Positions 2,601 through 63,886 of a stretch of DNA of 64,000 nucleotides are shown here, piece after piece; within the stretch, counting starts at the first letter, position 1, and the number at the start of each line of letters is the position of its first letter. The notes below the pieces were generated by a model that worked only from the letters and a program-made list of their open reading frames with translations, was not told the origin of the DNA and made no database searches. The stretch lies in contig NZ_QXTF01000001.1 in assembly GCF_003583725.1 (NCBI RefSeq), positions 186,001 to 250,000 on the forward strand, given 5' to 3'. Origin of the DNA: Sphingomonas edaphi. GTDB taxonomy: Bacteria; Pseudomonadota; Alphaproteobacteria; Sphingomonadales; Sphingomonadaceae. Position numbers and translations under genes: made by a program.

Positions 2601-3895
2601 GCGTTTTTAATCGCAATGACGACAGCGGCGTAACGCGTGGGGAGCGAGCTTTGCTCGTCGTACCCGAACGCGTCGGGGAGGGAGGACTGCGGTCGATCGA
2701 AGCCCGGGTCGAGGAGGCAGCCGGTCTCGCGGCGGCGATCGGCATCGACGTCGTGGCGAAGAGGTCCTACCGGCTTCGCCAGGTTCGCCCAGCAAGCTTG
2801 TTCGGCAAAGGGCAAGCCGAGGAAATCGCAACGATCGCCGAAGAAAATGAGGCAACGCTGCTGCTCGTCGACGCGGCATTGTCACCTGTCCAGCAGAAGA
2901 CCCTCGAAGAATTGACCAAGTGCAAGGTCATTGATCGCACTGGCCTGATTCTGGAGATCTTCGGCGAGCGTGCCGCGACGGCCGAAGGGCGGCTTCAAGT
3001 CGAGCTGGCCCACCTAGATTATCAGGCAGGCCGGCTGGTTCGCAGCTGGACCCACCTTGAGCGTCAGCGCGGCGGCTTCGGCTTCCTCGGCGGGCCTGGT
3101 GAAACGCAGATCGAGGCCGACAGGCGAATGATCCGTGACCGGATGGCACGGATTCGGAAGGAACTCGCCCAAGTCACGCGAACGCGGGGACTTCACCGTG
3201 ACCGACGTCAAAAAGCGCCTTGGCCCGTCATCGCGCTGGTCGGCTATACGAACGCCGGGAAGTCCACGCTCTTCAACCGTATGACGCAGGCTTCAGTGAT
3301 GGCCGAGGATTTGCTGTTCGCAACGCTTGATCCGACCATGCGGCACGTGAAAATACCGGGCTTTGACAAAGCGATCCTTTCAGACACCGTCGGTTTTGTC
3401 TCAAATCTTCCAACTGAATTGGTCGCCGCGTTTCGTGCAACGCTGGAAGAGGTGGAGTCCGCTGACTTGATCCTGCACGTCCGCGATATCTCCCATCCTG
3501 ACTCAGAAGCTCAGGCAGCCGATGTCGAGGCAGTTTTGGCGTCTCTGGGCTTGGACAAGGATGAGTCGCCGCCGCGGATCGAAGTCTGGAACAAGATCGA
3601 TGCACTCGACGACGAAAACCGGGCGCGAATTTTGACAGAAGCTGCGCGGAAAGAGCGCGTCGTGCCCGTATCGGCAATTACCGGTGATGGAATCGACGAC
3701 CTGCGCGAAGTGATTGCGGGCGAACTCCACTCAGGCGCGCAAACACATCAACTAACGCTGGAGGCGGGCGACGGGACCAGGGCGGCGTGGCTTCATGCGC
3801 GTGGAGAGGTTGTCGAGCAGCGAAGCGAGGGAGACCGGTTACATCTGGCCGTGAAGCTTAGTCCCGAGAACTGGGCTCGCTTCCAGCGCCTTTAG
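2597..3895 (+). CDS. hflX: Ribosome-associated GTPase HflX
   Basis: GTPase that splits stalled ribosomes. It has the N-terminal HflX domain ([18 protein letters not shown], with the [15 protein letters not shown] motif) and a TrmE/Era-like G domain with G1 [10 protein letters not shown]3 DTVGF and G4 NKID. The first ATG/GTG/TTG in frame is TTG at 2651, but the frame is open back to 2594 and encodes the family-like N-terminus [19 protein letters not shown] place the start at CTG 2597, overlapping the hfq stop as CTGA, with GGAGA at 2586-2590 six bases upstream; that gives 432 residues. TTG 2651 is the conventional alternative. The 3' end overlaps mazG (convergent) by 38 bases. Confidence 0.9.
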
Positions 3896-60452: not shown

Positions 60453-61514
60453 TCAGCCGGCAGCCGCGTCCATTAACTTGTGCCGCTTAAGTGCATGGCG
60501 AAGCTGGTCGTAGCTTAGCCCCAGAGCGGTCGCGGTCGCCCGCTGGTTGAAGCGATTGCGGGCCAGCGCGTCCTCCAGCAACGCGCGTTCATAGTTGGAC
60601 ACGGCGGAGCGCAGGTCGTCGGTCGAACTGGGAAACACTTGGCCATCGGGCGCGGCTGTTGCAATTGAAGGCTCTCCGTCCGCCACCGAAACATTAGCCG
60701 GCGAAGGCAACTTCGCGTCATCGCCAAGCACCCACGGCGACTGGAACGGATCGAACTGAATGGCATCGATTGGGCGCTCAGGATCTTCGGCCCGATAGAC
60801 AGCGCGCTCAATTACGTTGCGCAATTCGCGCACGTTGCCAGGCCATTGGTAACGTTCAAGTTCTGCCAGGGCTCGCTCCGAAAAACCGGGCCAGTTCGGC
60901 CAGTCCAGTTCGACCGCCATCCGTCGCCCGAAATGCTCAACGAGCAGCGGCACATCGCCCTTGCGTGCATGAAGCGGTGGCAGGGTCACGACTTCGAACG
61001 ACAGCCGGTCGAGCAGGTCGGCACGGAACCGTCCCTGCTCCACCAACTTGGGCAAATGCTCGTTGGTTGCCGCGACAATGCGCACATCGACCTGGATGGG
61101 CTTGGACGCGCCGATCCGCGTCACTTCGCCATATTCGACTGCACGAAGTAGGCGATCCTGCGCGGGCGACGACAAGGTTGCCAGTTCGTCGAGGAAAAGG
61201 GTTCCGCCGTCGGCCTCTTCAAAACGCCCGTGACGGGTCTTCGCTGCGCCGGTAAAGCTACCTGCCTCATGACCGAACAATTCGGCCTCAATCAGATTTT
61301 CCGGGAGCGCGGCGCAATTCATCGTGACCAGCGGTCCGGCCCACCGCTGCGATAAGTGGTGCAGACGCTCAGCGATCAATTCCTTGCCCGTCCCGCGCTC
61401 TCCGATTACGAGCACCGGACGATTGAGCGGCGCAGCACGGCTCGCCCGCTCGACCGCGTCGAGGAAGGCAAGACTTTGCCCGACAAATTGGTTGGTCCGC
61501 TCCACACCCAACAT
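60453..61514 (-). CDS. pspF: Phage-shock transcriptional activator PspF
   Basis: About 353 residues from ATG 61514 (ATG 61541 and GTG 61505 are alternatives). It has no receiver domain and starts directly with an AAA+ sigma-54-interaction domain: Walker A GERGTGKELIAERLH, ELFGHEAGSFTGAAKTRHGRFE with GSFTGA in place of the usual GAFTGA, Walker B GGTLFLDELATL, and YQWPGNVRELRNVIERAVYR. A Fis-type helix-turn-helix ends the protein (FNQRATATALGLSYDQLRHALKRH). It is held inactive by PspA in known systems. It is divergent from pspA. Confidence 0.95.
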   Translation of the reverse strand: MLGVERTNQFVGQSLAFLDAVERASRAAPLNRPVLVIGERGTGKELIAERLHHLSQRWAGPLVTMNCAALPENLIEAELFGHEAGSFTGAAKTRHGRFEEADGGTLFLDELATLSSPAQDRLLRAVEYGEVTRIGASKPIQVDVRIVAATNEHLPKLVEQGRFRADLLDRLSFEVVTLPPLHARKGDVPLLVEHFGRRMAVELDWPNWPGFSERALAELERYQWPGNVRELRNVIERAVYRAEDPERPIDAIQFDPFQSPWVLGDDAKLPSPANVSVADGEPSIATAAPDGQVFPSSTDDLRSAVSNYERALLEDALARNRFNQRATATALGLSYDQLRHALKRHKLMDAAAG

Positions 61515-61563
61515 CTGGTGGTAAATCCCACCATCTGGCAAGATATTTCACGCAGTCGTTGGT

Positions 61564-61592: not shown

Positions 61593-61607
61593 GTGTAACA
61601 GGAATTT

Positions 61608-61623
61608 TGGCACAAGCCCTGCA
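61608..61623 (+). promoter_or_regulatory. Sigma-54 promoter of the psp operon
   Basis: TGGCAC at 61608-61613 and CTGCA at 61619-61623 match the -24/-12 consensus TGGCAC-R-N4-TTGCW at all fixed bases except one T. The spacing between GG and GC is correct. It is 38 bases before the pspA start and opposite to pspF, the expected place for a PspF-dependent promoter. Confidence 0.88.
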
Positions 61624-61661: not shown

Positions 61662-62330
61662 ATGGGTATTTTTTCCCGGACTCGGGATATTTTCGCAGCC
61701 AATATGACGGAGCTGCTCGACCGCGCCGAAGATCCGGCGCGGATGATCCGCATGATCATCCTCGAAATGGAAGAAACGCTGGTCGAGGTCCGCGCATCCG
61801 CCGCACGTTCGATTGCCGATAGTAAGGAAATGAAGCGTGCGTTGGTGCGGCTTGAAGACCTCCAGGCCAACTGGACCGAGAAGGCGGAACTCGCCCTCTC
61901 CAAGGACCGCGAGGATTTGGCCAAGGCGGCGCTGCTCGAACGGCAGAAGGCAGCCGACATGGCCGATGGCCTCCGGACGGAGCTCGCGGCGATCGAGGAC
62001 ACGCTGAAGGGCTATGAGGCCGATATCGCCAAGCTTCAGGGGAAGCTGCGCGAGGCCCGGGCACGCCAGAATGCCATCGCGACCCGGATCGAGAGCGCTG
62101 TGACCCGCGCCCGCACCCGCGAGATGCTGAACGGGGCACGGACGGAGGATGCATTTTCCCGTTTCGAACAGCTGGAGCGCCGGGCCGACTTCGCCGAAGG
62201 GCGCGCGGATGCGCTGGGAATGACCGGGCCGAAAAGCCTGGAAGAGGAAATCGCCGAGCTCAAGGCGACCGACAAGGTCGACGCAGAGTTGGAAGCAATG
62301 AAGGCCGCACTGAAGGCCAAGGGGGCATAA
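61662..62330 (+). CDS. pspA: Phage-shock protein PspA
   Basis: 222 residues, almost entirely coiled coil, as in the PspA/IM30 (ESCRT-III-like) family. It begins MGIFSRTRDIFAANMTELLDRAEDPARMIRMIILEMEE-like, the amphipathic helix and first hairpin. It supports the inner membrane under stress and in known systems represses PspF. GGAG lies upstream. The stop abuts pspB directly. Confidence 0.96.
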   Translation: MGIFSRTRDIFAANMTELLDRAEDPARMIRMIILEMEETLVEVRASAARSIADSKEMKRALVRLEDLQANWTEKAELALSKDREDLAKAALLERQKAADMADGLRTELAAIEDTLKGYEADIAKLQGKLREARARQNAIATRIESAVTRARTREMLNGARTEDAFSRFEQLERRADFAEGRADALGMTGPKSLEEEIAELKATDKVDAELEAMKAALKAKGA

Positions 62331-62603
62331 GTGGACGAAGTTTTTATTCCGTTGATCGCAATTGTTACGCTGTTCATCGGCCTCCCGTGGCTGGTGTTCC
62401 ACTACATCACGCGCTGGAAGACCGCGGCCACGCTGACCGGATCGGACGAGAAACTGCTCGATGAACTGCACGACGCGGCCCGCCGGCTCGACGATCGGCT
62501 GTGCACGATCGAGCGGATCATGACGGCCGAGAACCCCAACTGGCGCCAGCAATGCCTGCCGGAAACCAGCCGCCAGCGTCTCCTCCTGGAAGAAGAGAAG
62601 TAA
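62331..62603 (+). CDS. pspB: Phage-shock membrane protein PspB
   Basis: 90 residues, GTG start directly after the pspA stop. One N-terminal membrane helix (VFIPLIAIVTLFIGLPWLVFHYI) is followed by a cytoplasmic helix that ends RLCTIERIMTAENPNWRQQ, the PspB signature. With PspC it senses membrane stress and binds PspA. Confidence 0.93.
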   Translation: MDEVFIPLIAIVTLFIGLPWLVFHYITRWKTAATLTGSDEKLLDELHDAARRLDDRLCTIERIMTAENPNWRQQCLPETSRQRLLLEEEK

Positions 62604-62608
62604 GAGCT

Positions 62609-62998
62609 ATGCCCACGCAACCGCCAAGCCGCACGAAATTCTATCTCGACAAGCGTCACGGCAAGGTCATGGGCGTCTGCTCGGGGATTGCCGACTATAC
62701 GGGCCTCGACGTCACCCTCGTCCGCATCATGGTCGTTGGCGCCGTCTTGATGAGCGGCGGCAGCGTGCTTCCGCTATACTTCGTCGCCGGCTTCATCGCC
62801 GACGACAAGCCGCGCGAACTGGCGATCGAGGACCAGGAGCATCAACGTTTCTGGCAGGGCGTGCGCCAGTCGCCTGCCCGGACCGCTCGCGATATTCGCA
62901 GCCGCATGCGCGACATCGATCGCCGTCTTGCCGACATCGAAAGCTATGTCACGACCGAAAACCGCAGCCTAGCCAGGGAAATTGAGCAGCTGCGCTAG
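62609..62998 (+). CDS. pspC: Phage-shock membrane protein PspC
   Basis: 129 residues from ATG 62609. PspC domain: SRTKFYLDKRHGKVMGVCSG, IADYTGLDVTLVRIMVVGAVL, then a membrane helix (VVGAVLMSGGSVLPLYFVAGFI) with the D/K-rich IADDKPREL. The C-terminal helix DRRLADIESYVTTENRSLAR EIEQLR carries the same motif found in PspB and the three following proteins. It is five bases after pspB. Confidence 0.94.
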   Translation: MPTQPPSRTKFYLDKRHGKVMGVCSGIADYTGLDVTLVRIMVVGAVLMSGGSVLPLYFVAGFIADDKPRELAIEDQEHQRFWQGVRQSPARTARDIRSRMRDIDRRLADIESYVTTENRSLAREIEQLR

Positions 62999-63018
62999 AT
63001 AAGACGGGGGAAGTCATC

Positions 63019-63363
63019 ATGGATCCGGAAAAGCTGGAAACCTTTAGGTTCGTTGGAGAAATACTGCCCTACGTCGCGGTCATCGTGGCTGTCAGCGTCG
63101 GGGGCTGGGTCATGACAACCTGGCTCAGGATCAAGAATGGCTACCCGCTGGAAAATAGCTGGGGAAAGGCGCTCCACCCCCATACCGACCGGGAATCCCA
63201 GGAGCGGATCAAGCTGCTGACCACCGAGAACGCGCAGCTTCGCGCGGAGCTTGGCTCAGTCAAGGACCGGCTTGAAACGATTGAGCGGATCGTAACCGAT
63301 CAACCCTCGCGCCTCGCCCAGGAGATCGACCGGCTGGCGATGGACAAAGGAGGCCACGCCTGA
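63019..63363 (+). CDS. PspB-like small membrane protein A
   Basis: 114 residues, ATG 63019 with GGGGGAAG upstream. One membrane helix (ILPYVAVIVAVSVGGWVMTTWL, about 14-35), a linker, then a coiled coil (ERIKLLTTENAQLRAELGSVKDRLETIERIVTD-type, about 62-95) that ends RLAQEIDRLAMDKGG. The ETIERIVTD segment matches TIERIMTAE of PspB. It has no name I recognise. Its position after pspC and its layout imply a role in the same envelope-stress response. Confidence 0.8.
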   Translation: MDPEKLETFRFVGEILPYVAVIVAVSVGGWVMTTWLRIKNGYPLENSWGKALHPHTDRESQERIKLLTTENAQLRAELGSVKDRLETIERIVTDQPSRLAQEIDRLAMDKGGHA

Positions 63364-63644
63364 TGGGTCCGGGAGAAACCATTGCACTGCTAATCGTCGT
63401 CGGCATGCCGATGTTGATGATGATCATGTGGACGCGCAGTCACTTTCGCTACAAGGAAAAACAGCTGGAGGCTGAGACGTCGCTGGCTGCGGAAAAGGCC
63501 GCTCAATATGCCGCGTCGAACGCAGAGCTTGAAGCGCGGGTCAGAGTGCTGGAAAAGATCGTGACGGACGGCGGAATCGAAACCGCTGCCCAGATCGAGG
63601 CGCTGCGCACTCCCCGCCTCGCGCAAGGAGACAAGGTCCAGTGA
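63363..63644 (+). CDS. PspB-like small membrane protein B
   Basis: 93 residues, overlapping the previous gene by one base (TGATG). N-terminal membrane helix TIALLIVVGMPMLMMIMW (about 6-23), then a charged coiled coil (EKQLEAETSLAAEKAAQYAA) ending VRVLEKIVTDGGIETAAQIE. The VLEKIVTD segment again matches PspB and its neighbours. Confidence 0.8.
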   Translation: MGPGETIALLIVVGMPMLMMIMWTRSHFRYKEKQLEAETSLAAEKAAQYAASNAELEARVRVLEKIVTDGGIETAAQIEALRTPRLAQGDKVQ

Positions 63645-63886
63645 ACCCCTTTGAAATGGTTGCGATCATCGTCGTGTCGGTAATGATCGCGACGGTACTG
63701 AAAGCGAAGTACAGCCACCGCAACCGCGATGACTCGGCCCGTGTTCCTCCCCAGGAACAGGCGGAAACGCTTCGCCTTCGAGACGAGGTCAAGCAACTAA
63801 AGGAGCGCATCCACGTGCTGGAGCGGATCGCGGTGGAGAAGGAAGACACGCTTTCCCGCCAAATCGAGCAGCTGCGCGACCGTTAG
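63641..63886 (+). CDS. PspB-like small membrane protein C
   Basis: 81 residues, GTG start overlapping the previous stop (GTGA). Membrane helix FEMVAIIVVSVMIATVL (about 4-20), a basic stop-transfer patch (KAKYSHRNRDD), then a helix LRDEVKQLKERIHVLERIAV that ends TLSRQIEQLRDR. KERIHVLERI closely resembles E. coli PspB (RERIQALESI). It is the third in the series. Confidence 0.8.
   Translation: MNPFEMVAIIVVSVMIATVLKAKYSHRNRDDSARVPPQEQAETLRLRDEVKQLKERIHVLERIAVEKEDTLSRQIEQLRDR

Follow-up and report, generated by a model that had tools for sequence, protein, structure and literature searches.

The psp locus in the window analysed here, a stretch of 64,000 nucleotides, is complete, with pspF, a sigma-54-type site, pspA, pspB and pspC, and it continues beyond pspC into three further small genes, A, B and C. 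What these additional membrane proteins contribute to the phage shock response is the question that the locus raises. The initial annotation had seen one shared C-terminal motif in PspB, PspC, A, B and C, and had taken A-C for a series of PspB paralogues coupled by overlapping starts, possibly acting as interchangeable sensors or as a hetero-oligomeric platform that binds PspA. Our analyses point to a tentative reading, to which we give slightly less than an even chance, that A, B and C are tandem small membrane anchors presenting a PspC-type tail for PspA docking. The genes pspA, pspB, pspC, A, B and C form six open reading frames on one strand, with pspF divergent, and the features of the locus are as follows.

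60453..61541, minus strand: pspF, sigma-54 enhancer-binding activator (NCBIfam TIGR02974, 484 bits, cut-off 443.55)
61607..61623, plus strand: sigma-54 (-24/-12) promoter-like site TTGGCACAAGCCCTGCA, upstream of pspA (consensus score 12/14)
61662..62330, plus strand: pspA (TIGR02977, 263.1 bits, cut-off 242.95)
62331..62603, plus strand: pspB, GTG start, PspB-type C-terminus TIERIMTAENPNWR (PF06667 88 bits, TIGR02976 85.1 bits, both above cut-off)
62609..62998, plus strand: pspC, PspC domain and C-terminal tail (TIGR02978, 126.9 bits, cut-off 104)
62912..62995, plus strand: PspC tail DIDRRLADIESYVTTENRSLAREIEQLR, the reference form of the motif (spacing as in E. coli PspC)
63019..63363, plus strand: gene A (type A2), 114 aa, with one transmembrane helix, conserved juxtamembrane segment, coiled coil and putative PspC-type tail (alignment, model)
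63136..63168, plus strand: juxtamembrane segment of gene A, NGYPLENSWGK (invariant columns in the alignment)
63256..63339, plus strand: gene A tail SVKDRLETIERIVTDQPSRLAQEIDRLA (motif register)
63363..63644, plus strand: gene B, 93 aa, with one transmembrane helix, coiled coil and putative PspC-type tail (open reading frame call)
63525..63608, plus strand: gene B tail ELEARVRVLEKIVTDGGIETAAQIEALR (register score 7/8; T at +10)
63641..63886, plus strand: gene C, 81 aa, GTG start, with one transmembrane helix, coiled coil and putative PspC-type tail (open reading frame call)
63794..63877, plus strand: gene C tail QLKERIHVLERIAVEKEDTLSRQIEQLR (A rather than V at +3, V rather than T at +4)

Gene order and regulation

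Overlapping starts join A to B (TGATG) and B to C (GTGA), but the coupling proposed for the whole series is limited to A-B-C, because gaps of 5 nt and 20 nt separate pspB from pspC and pspC from A. A sufE-like gene lies 39 nt beyond the end of C.

The score of the sigma-54 site in the window (maximum 14) was reached by 28 of 2,000 random 400-base pieces of the same window. Among relatives, a GG-N10-GC site scoring at least 12 was present in 61 of 66 pspF-pspA intergenic regions, the window included, versus 0.3% of shuffles, an observation that we count in favour of docking. A first scan, covering 250 bp upstream of pspA, had given scores of at least 11 in only 7 of 67 cases, and the E. coli control yielded no site in the sigma-54 scan, probably because the scan requires GC at -12. 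Between positions 3500 and 6400 of locus L002, no sigma-70-like promoter was found, and the sole terminator-like match lay inside pspA. The sigma-54 site and the gene layout of the psp regulon are conserved, and since this site lies between pspF and pspA, A-C are probably induced together with PspA by PspF.

Predicted topology and structure

Hydropathy and charge point to one hydrophobic helix near the N-terminus of each of A, B and C, with positive charge in excess on the side toward the C-terminus. Because of this charge distribution we infer an N-out, C-in topology for A-C, which fits that of PspB. The view of A-C as one membrane helix followed by a presumably cytoplasmic coiled coil, as in PspB, was thus borne out by hydropathy and charge, and for A and C also by structure models. 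These single-chain models had low pTM values (0.26 for A, 0.33 for C) and serve as a basis for helix limits only. Helices of A span residues 3-39, 57-94 and 96-111, with a break at 95 (pLDDT about 70-80 there) that divides the tail into two parts. In C, helices span residues 3-30 and 37-80, the latter unbroken through the tail, unlike in A, which counts against docking. Residues K39, G41, Y42, P43, L44, W48 and G49 of gene A were invariant in 17 of 17 aligned sequences, and the majority of its invariant columns fall in the predicted cytoplasmic part, spread over juxtamembrane segment, coiled coil and tail.

Relationship of A, B and C to PspB and PspC

By profile comparison, A, B and C are one family, and the types A1, A2, B and C together with the solitary C-type genes of other families matched one another at hhalign probabilities of 97.7-100%. 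Against PspB of other families (17 rows) the values were 94.8% for C, 93.1% for B, 86.5% for A1 and 52.9% for A2, the type to which gene A of the window belongs. With the C-terminus of PspC from other families (15 rows) they were 88.5% for B, 83.4% for A1, 83.1% for A2 and 44.7% for C, and with the tail of the PspC belonging to the window's family 94.3% for A2, 93.8% for C, 92.8% for A1 and 86.1% for B. Accordingly, A2 and B were similar to the PspC tail whichever PspC set was used, and C with that of its own family only; the low value of the C type with PspC of other families counts against docking. A fifth type, D, is a member of the array in relatives and absent from the window, and its similarity to PspB and PspC was weak (0.4-17.9%).

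Curated models place A-C below the PspB thresholds. With PF06667 (cut-off 25.6), B and C scored 19.0 and 20.4 bits and A had no match, and with TIGR02976 (cut-off 51.7) C scored 24.6 bits (E 2.3e-5). TIGR02976 is matched weakly by 11 of 19 C-type members, and PF06667, again weakly, by 3 of 19 and 5 of 17. Weak matches of C and A to positions 46-121 of TIGR02978 were also seen (17.0 and 16.9 bits), and at E up to 10 neither the PspC domain PF04024 nor PspD (Pfam) was among the matches of A, B and C. The profile check for PspB similarity thus gave a divided answer, since hhalign relates A-C to PspB (A2 at 52.9%) but all three stay below the PspB cut-offs. Two other candidate assignments were set aside: A as a PspB, as it has no PF06667 match and members of its alignment match generic coiled-coil families (bZIP, ZapB), and a phage origin, as there was no PHROGs match. 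The search for relatives of solved structure returned none for PspB at E up to 1, and for PspC one irrelevant match (aminolevulinate synthase, E 0.21).

In a tree of 121 proteins built from 100 columns, in which many forks are open, PspB is set apart by a fully supported branch of length 3.06, and PspB and D each lie on one side of a branch. The labels A1, A2, B and C require 3-4 changes each, and the total of 10 compares with a mean of 79.1 after shuffling. Because labels cluster on the tree, the A1/A2/B/C/D types are probably old within the window's family, with later B and C copies in some lineages. The proposal of a PspB paralogue series, as originally worded, is not supported by these comparisons, in view of the scores below the PspB cut-offs, the separate long branch of PspB and a distal tail half resembling that of PspC.

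With PspB (PF06667, TIGR02976), A-C have in common one N-terminal membrane helix, a coiled coil and a place in the pspA cluster, but they score below curated cut-offs, branch apart and appear to carry a PspC-type distal helix in place of the PxW end. With PspC (TIGR02978) they appear to share the tail register E0-V3-T4-L10-[IF]14-L17, within which E. coli V105 falls and from which B and C depart in places; they lack the PspC domain and have their single membrane helix encoded as an own gene.

The tails of A, B and C are very probably of the PspC type

The tail similarity among the five proteins exceeds what is expected from coiled-coil periodicity. We compared the best ungapped 21-residue match between cytoplasmic parts with 200 heptad-preserving shuffles, and 8 of the 10 pairs among PspB, PspC, A, B and C were reached by at most 2 of 200; the exceptions were PspB-B (40/200) and PspC-B (16/200). 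The C-terminal likeness noticed at the outset, for which an alignment check had been proposed, is therefore genuine beyond coiled-coil periodicity.

A position matrix contrasting PspB and PspC tails of other families with a coiled-coil background was tried as a means of sorting the two tail types and rejected, as it placed A-C in neither. The scores were low for both, which counts against docking (PspC matrix: A -5.3, B -5.4, C -1.6; PspB matrix: A -4.6, B -3.9, C 5.0). We then turned to profile comparison at family level, with shuffles that permuted tail columns within heptad classes while retaining the membrane helix (n=60). In the six PspC-tail comparisons of A2, B and C the observed score was reached by 0 of 60 column shuffles each, which favours docking. 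For PspB it was 0 of 60 against C and solitary C, and 1 of 60 each against B, A1 and A2, the latter being listed against docking.

Anchored on the Glu of 'LE', the consensus of PspC in other families reads MEahVTSkeF-LkReFRdLE, that of A2 VERIVTDesHRLa-EIEaLR, that of B LERIVTDKGiDVADeIEkLR and that of solitary C LERIVTDK--rL-eEIDaL, and PspB of other families reads LErILDAEaPdWR. The PspC-type tail can be summarized as LE-x-I-V-T-D-x4-L-x3-I-x2-L, from which B and C each deviate at one or two positions, and the PspB-type tail as LE-x-I-L-D-A-E-x-P-x-W-R. On account of these anchored consensus sequences, A-C appear to carry the PspC-type distal half; PspB in the window has the proximal half in common with the others and then takes the PxW form (TAENPNWR), as in most PspB of other families. 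We therefore consider it highly probable that the tail of A-C is PspC-type and that PspB shares its proximal half only. The proposal of one C-terminal motif common to five proteins stands for PspC, A, B and C, which share both halves, and for PspB in the proximal half alone.

Counts at single positions differ between the types; the register was picked partly on the counted positions, so they are biased toward the motif. Tryptophan at +8 to +11 occurs in 14 of 14 PspB of other families in the comparison and in 15 of 17 of all those fetched (of the three outside the 14-row comparison, L128 has W, and L130 and L131 are without it), in 32 of 76 PspB of the window's family, many of which have F instead, and in 0/65 A1, 0/75 A2, 0/74 B and 0/91 C; the PspB-type PxW end is thus absent from these four types. 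Hydrophobic residues at +10, +14 and +17 occur in 15 of 15 PspC of other families and in all 72 anchored PspC of the window's family (4 of 76 were unanchored), as well as in 75/75 A2, 52/74 B, 28/91 C and 19/65 A1. By eye, the low counts among these go back to inserted residues or to T at +10. When T or S at +4 is considered together with the three hydrophobic positions, A of the window has all of them, B has T at +10 and C has V at +4. D-type proteins are without the distal half, which counts against docking.

A residue linked to PspA binding lies within the shared tail

In Yersinia enterocolitica, mutation of PspC V125 abolishes the PspC-PspA interaction, and the matching change at V105 of E. 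coli PspC abolishes PspC-dependent signalling, as reported in PMC6003685. Binding of PspA in E. coli needs the leucine-zipper region of PspC (PMC3068692), which is periplasmic according to that paper and cytoplasmic according to PMC5596341; we adopt the cytoplasmic placement. In E. coli K-12, V105 is the V of ERYVTS and corresponds to +3 of the motif, which favours docking. Given that the motif equals the PspC C-terminus and includes a residue on which PspA binding or signalling reportedly depends, it is plausible by analogy that the shared tail is a PspA-binding element.

In the window, +3 is V in A, B and PspC, and A in C. Across the loci of the best 80 of 137 gene A relatives, plus the window, V was counted at +3 in 63/75 A2, 53/74 B, 10/65 A1 and 3/91 C, and alanine in 79/91 C and 53/65 A1, the alanine counts standing against docking. 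PspC of the window's family has Y at this position in 55 of 76 cases, which likewise counts against docking: V at +3 would be dispensable in this family, or PspC has lost the docking role there.

Distribution and linkage of the array

A single contig scan with gene A gave 137 relatives, of which the best 80 were kept; as all of these loci were selected for holding A, their linkage and array size are biased accordingly. Within this set, pspA, pspB and pspC were present in 75 of the 80 loci, the remaining five being cut by contig ends. The 75 complete loci contain three (n=5), four (17), five (45), six (7) or seven (1) genes of types A1, A2, B, C and D, in 19 gene orders, the commonest being A1-A2-B-C-D (34/75). 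Some lineages have added B and C copies (L005, L009), and smaller sets also exist, with two array genes in G053 and two, one C-type and one D-type, in G130.

The order sample comprised 147 genomes, 64 of the window's family and 83 of other families. C-type profile matches were found in 64/64 and 61/83 of these, respectively. The A profile matched strongly (E < 1e-10) in 60/64 and 0/83, and weakly in 40/83, while PspB above cut-off was present in 134 of the 147 and in 62 of the 64. In the class sample (n=240), the A profile matched in four genomes, three of the window's family plus a weak match of G327 to its C-type gene, and the C-type profile in 10, four of them strongly, these being the same four genomes; PspB above cut-off occurred in 21. 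At least two of the weak C-type matches in this sample are PspB itself.

In a further set of 26 genomes of the window's family, four of them also in the order sample, 86 tail matches (matches, not confirmed separate genes) were found in 25, all on the same strand and 771-2703 nt downstream of pspA, which argues for docking. The one genome without a pspA match had no tail match. One member of the window's family outside the 26 has an unlinked soluble protein bearing the tail.

Other families and natural losses

In family f8, four genomes have a psp operon with a short, tail-less PspC followed by one C-type gene (L093, L099, L159, L160), and in three cases a C-type gene directly follows rpoD (L097, L158, L161; RpoD confirmed). 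Family f5 has single or paired C-type genes away from psp (L150, L151, L154, L155; L155 by eye), several of them no more than a few kb from rpoD or a flagellin gene. Occurrence away from psp loci, named beforehand as an observation that would speak against the annotation, was thus seen for C-type genes in other families of the order and for the one unlinked tailed protein, but the tail matches in the 26 genomes were uniformly psp-linked. The placement of C-type genes outside psp loci in other families suggests that the C-type family predates the array seen in the window's family. Such solitary genes call for another explanation, which counts against docking. As a candidate unlinked PspF target comparable to pspG they were rejected: no sigma-54 site stood out in the seven upstream regions scanned, one of which was only 119 nt long.

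Outside these families, L125 (family f58) is an apparently independent case: two extra single-helix genes stand behind pspC, of which one has a PspC-type tail and the other scores above the PspB cut-off (PF06667, 39 bits). Natural losses are found in two genomes. In G053 (L102), pspA and a tail-less PspC of 88 aa are accompanied by one B-type and one C-type gene, each of which has V at +3. In G145 (L170), pspA and PspC come with three array genes, two B-like and one C-like as typed by eye. PspB was not found in either genome. Both arrangements are counted in favour of docking, and they fit a role of the array in steps performed elsewhere by PspB and the PspC tail.

Possible roles of A, B and C

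If A, B and C are docking anchors, they would be placed in the inner membrane beside PspB and PspC, and upon membrane damage, or through induction alone, their tails would bind PspA as the PspC tail does. With these added docking sites, more PspA would leave PspF for the membrane, which would amplify and spread the response. Through the differences between their membrane helices and juxtamembrane segments, one PspA pool could answer several membrane states, and a mixed platform could arise if the coiled coils of A, B, C, PspB and PspC pair with one another. The data suggest that sphingomonads may spread PspA docking over several proteins. A stronger version, in which docking has moved from PspC to variable single-helix anchors in a mixed platform of changing composition, we regard as rather unlikely. 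In most loci PspC is without the critical valine and A2 and B retain it, and G053 is without PspB and the PspC tail, observations that speak for such a move.

The main alternative, though a doubtful one, is that A-C act as PspB-like silencers, whose coiled coils would pair with the PspC tail or with each other and block PspA until a signal arrives, so that the array would set threshold and specificity and not add docking sites. Their proximal coiled coil and membrane helix are indeed PspB-like (PspB versus C 94.8%, 0/60 shuffles), the Y. enterocolitica response is silenced by interaction of the PspB and PspC cytoplasmic domains according to the title of a reference in PMC5596341, and B- and C-type genes are kept in G053 and G145, the two genomes in which PspB was not found. 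Yet at their distal ends A-C appear to carry the PspC form where PspB typically has PxW, and G053 has no PspC tail to silence. It is unlikely, in our assessment, that A-C are instead effectors made in bulk on induction, like PspB and PspC in Yersinia, stabilizing the membrane or buffering secretins without signalling or PspA contact. Tolerance of secretin stress in Yersinia needs PspB and PspC with PspA dispensable (PMC5596341), and the genes stand close behind pspC with no sigma-70-like promoter and the only terminator-like match inside pspA, all of which would suit effectors, but most invariant columns of gene A lie in its cytoplasmic part. Lineage-specific drift, with repeated duplication and copies kept in largely redundant function, seems very improbable. 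Copy number and order vary (3-7 genes and 19 orders in 75 loci), and extra B and C copies are seen in lineages such as L005 and L009, as drift would predict; against it, the five types A1, A2, B, C and D turn up again in many genera, genes of one label group together on the tree, though it has few columns and many open forks, and at least one array gene occurs in all 64 sampled genomes of the window's family.

Whereas the E. coli and Yersinia models have one PspB and one PspC each, the loci described here offer natural sets of alternative tails; these, together with loci that have lost PspB or, in one case, the PspC tail, could open the docking step to swaps and deletions. PspA recruitment may also rely on adaptors that are unnamed in the profile libraries scanned.

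Relation to described psp systems

Popp et al. 2022 (PMC9239133) described a consensus gene neighbourhood for each phylum, which in Proteobacteria surrounds PspA with PspB, PspC and PspD, and Ravi et al. 2024 (PMC11237479) described PspB duplicates in psp operons and a divergent PspB fused to PspC. The latter cases resemble ours in the extra PspB-like units within the operon, of which the PspB duplicate of L125 is an instance, and the PspB-like ends on PspC; they differ in that the parts of PMC11237479 considered here mention no multi-gene arrays, A1/A2/B/C/D types, PspC-type tail or sphingomonads. Likewise, those parts and the corresponding ones of PMC9239133 give no account of arrays, of a PspC-type tail on separate anchors or of sphingomonads, and among the open-licence papers searched, none treated phage shock proteins and pspB together with Sphingomonas, or phage shock and PspA together with Novosphingobium. 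As far as these portions go, PspB duplicates were already known, and new here are the arrays of separate, putatively PspC-tailed anchors in sphingomonads. One protein given as an example in PMC11237479, AOL22920.1, may belong to the A-C group.

Variation of the array and its flanking genes

Beyond the small single-membrane-helix genes A, B and C that follow pspC in the window, related psp arrays contain, besides types A1, A2, B and C, a fifth gene type, D, which is absent from the window. It is the last gene in 65 of the 75 complete arrays (loci with pspA, pspB and pspC among the best 80 of 137 relatives of A, and chosen for carrying A). The D-type C-terminus is a form of LKERIRKLEAIAAGVDL, and it retains the proximal half of the motif but lacks the distal half. 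The features considered here are as follows.

Features within and outside the window
Window 63136-63168: juxtamembrane segment NGYPLENSWGK of gene A, also in A2-type relatives
Window 63926 onward (L002 5926-6345): sufE-like gene, PF02657, 115.9 bits
L016 5911-6153: D-type gene, one example; 49 others besides
L020 3798-3986 and L159 3436-3690: short second PspC, a PspC domain without tail
L171 3728-4117 (genome G030, contig C6): soluble protein, DUF6487-like part, coiled coil and tail
L169 3470-4649 (genome of the window, G000, contig C2): PspA paralogue and PspC-like protein

The juxtamembrane segment of gene A is almost invariant among A2 relatives of different genera, and no counterpart was found in the family libraries scanned. 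Since the sufE-like gene starts 39 nt after the end of C, and one is also found 3′ of D at locus L149, it may be cotranscribed with the psp array. In some psp operons there is an additional, very short PspC of 62-84 aa.

Occurrence of the tail and of psp-like genes elsewhere

The soluble protein of L171 has a DUF6487-like part that scores 22.5 bits, slightly below the cut-off of 24. Its C-terminal end consists of the coiled coil and tail seen in the A-C array proteins, and no psp genes were found near it within the 8 kb fetched. This protein makes the tail look like a portable module. Outside the window's family, solitary C-type genes (L097, L158, L161, L151, L154) lie immediately 3′ of rpoD or at most a few kb away, where no connection with membrane stress is obvious. 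The genome of the window also carries a second pair, unlinked to the psp locus of the window: a PspA paralogue barely above the TIGR02977 cut-off (244.3 bits) and, after it, a PspC-like protein whose score of 55.5 bits is below the cut-off of 104 and whose C-terminus is a PspC-like tail.
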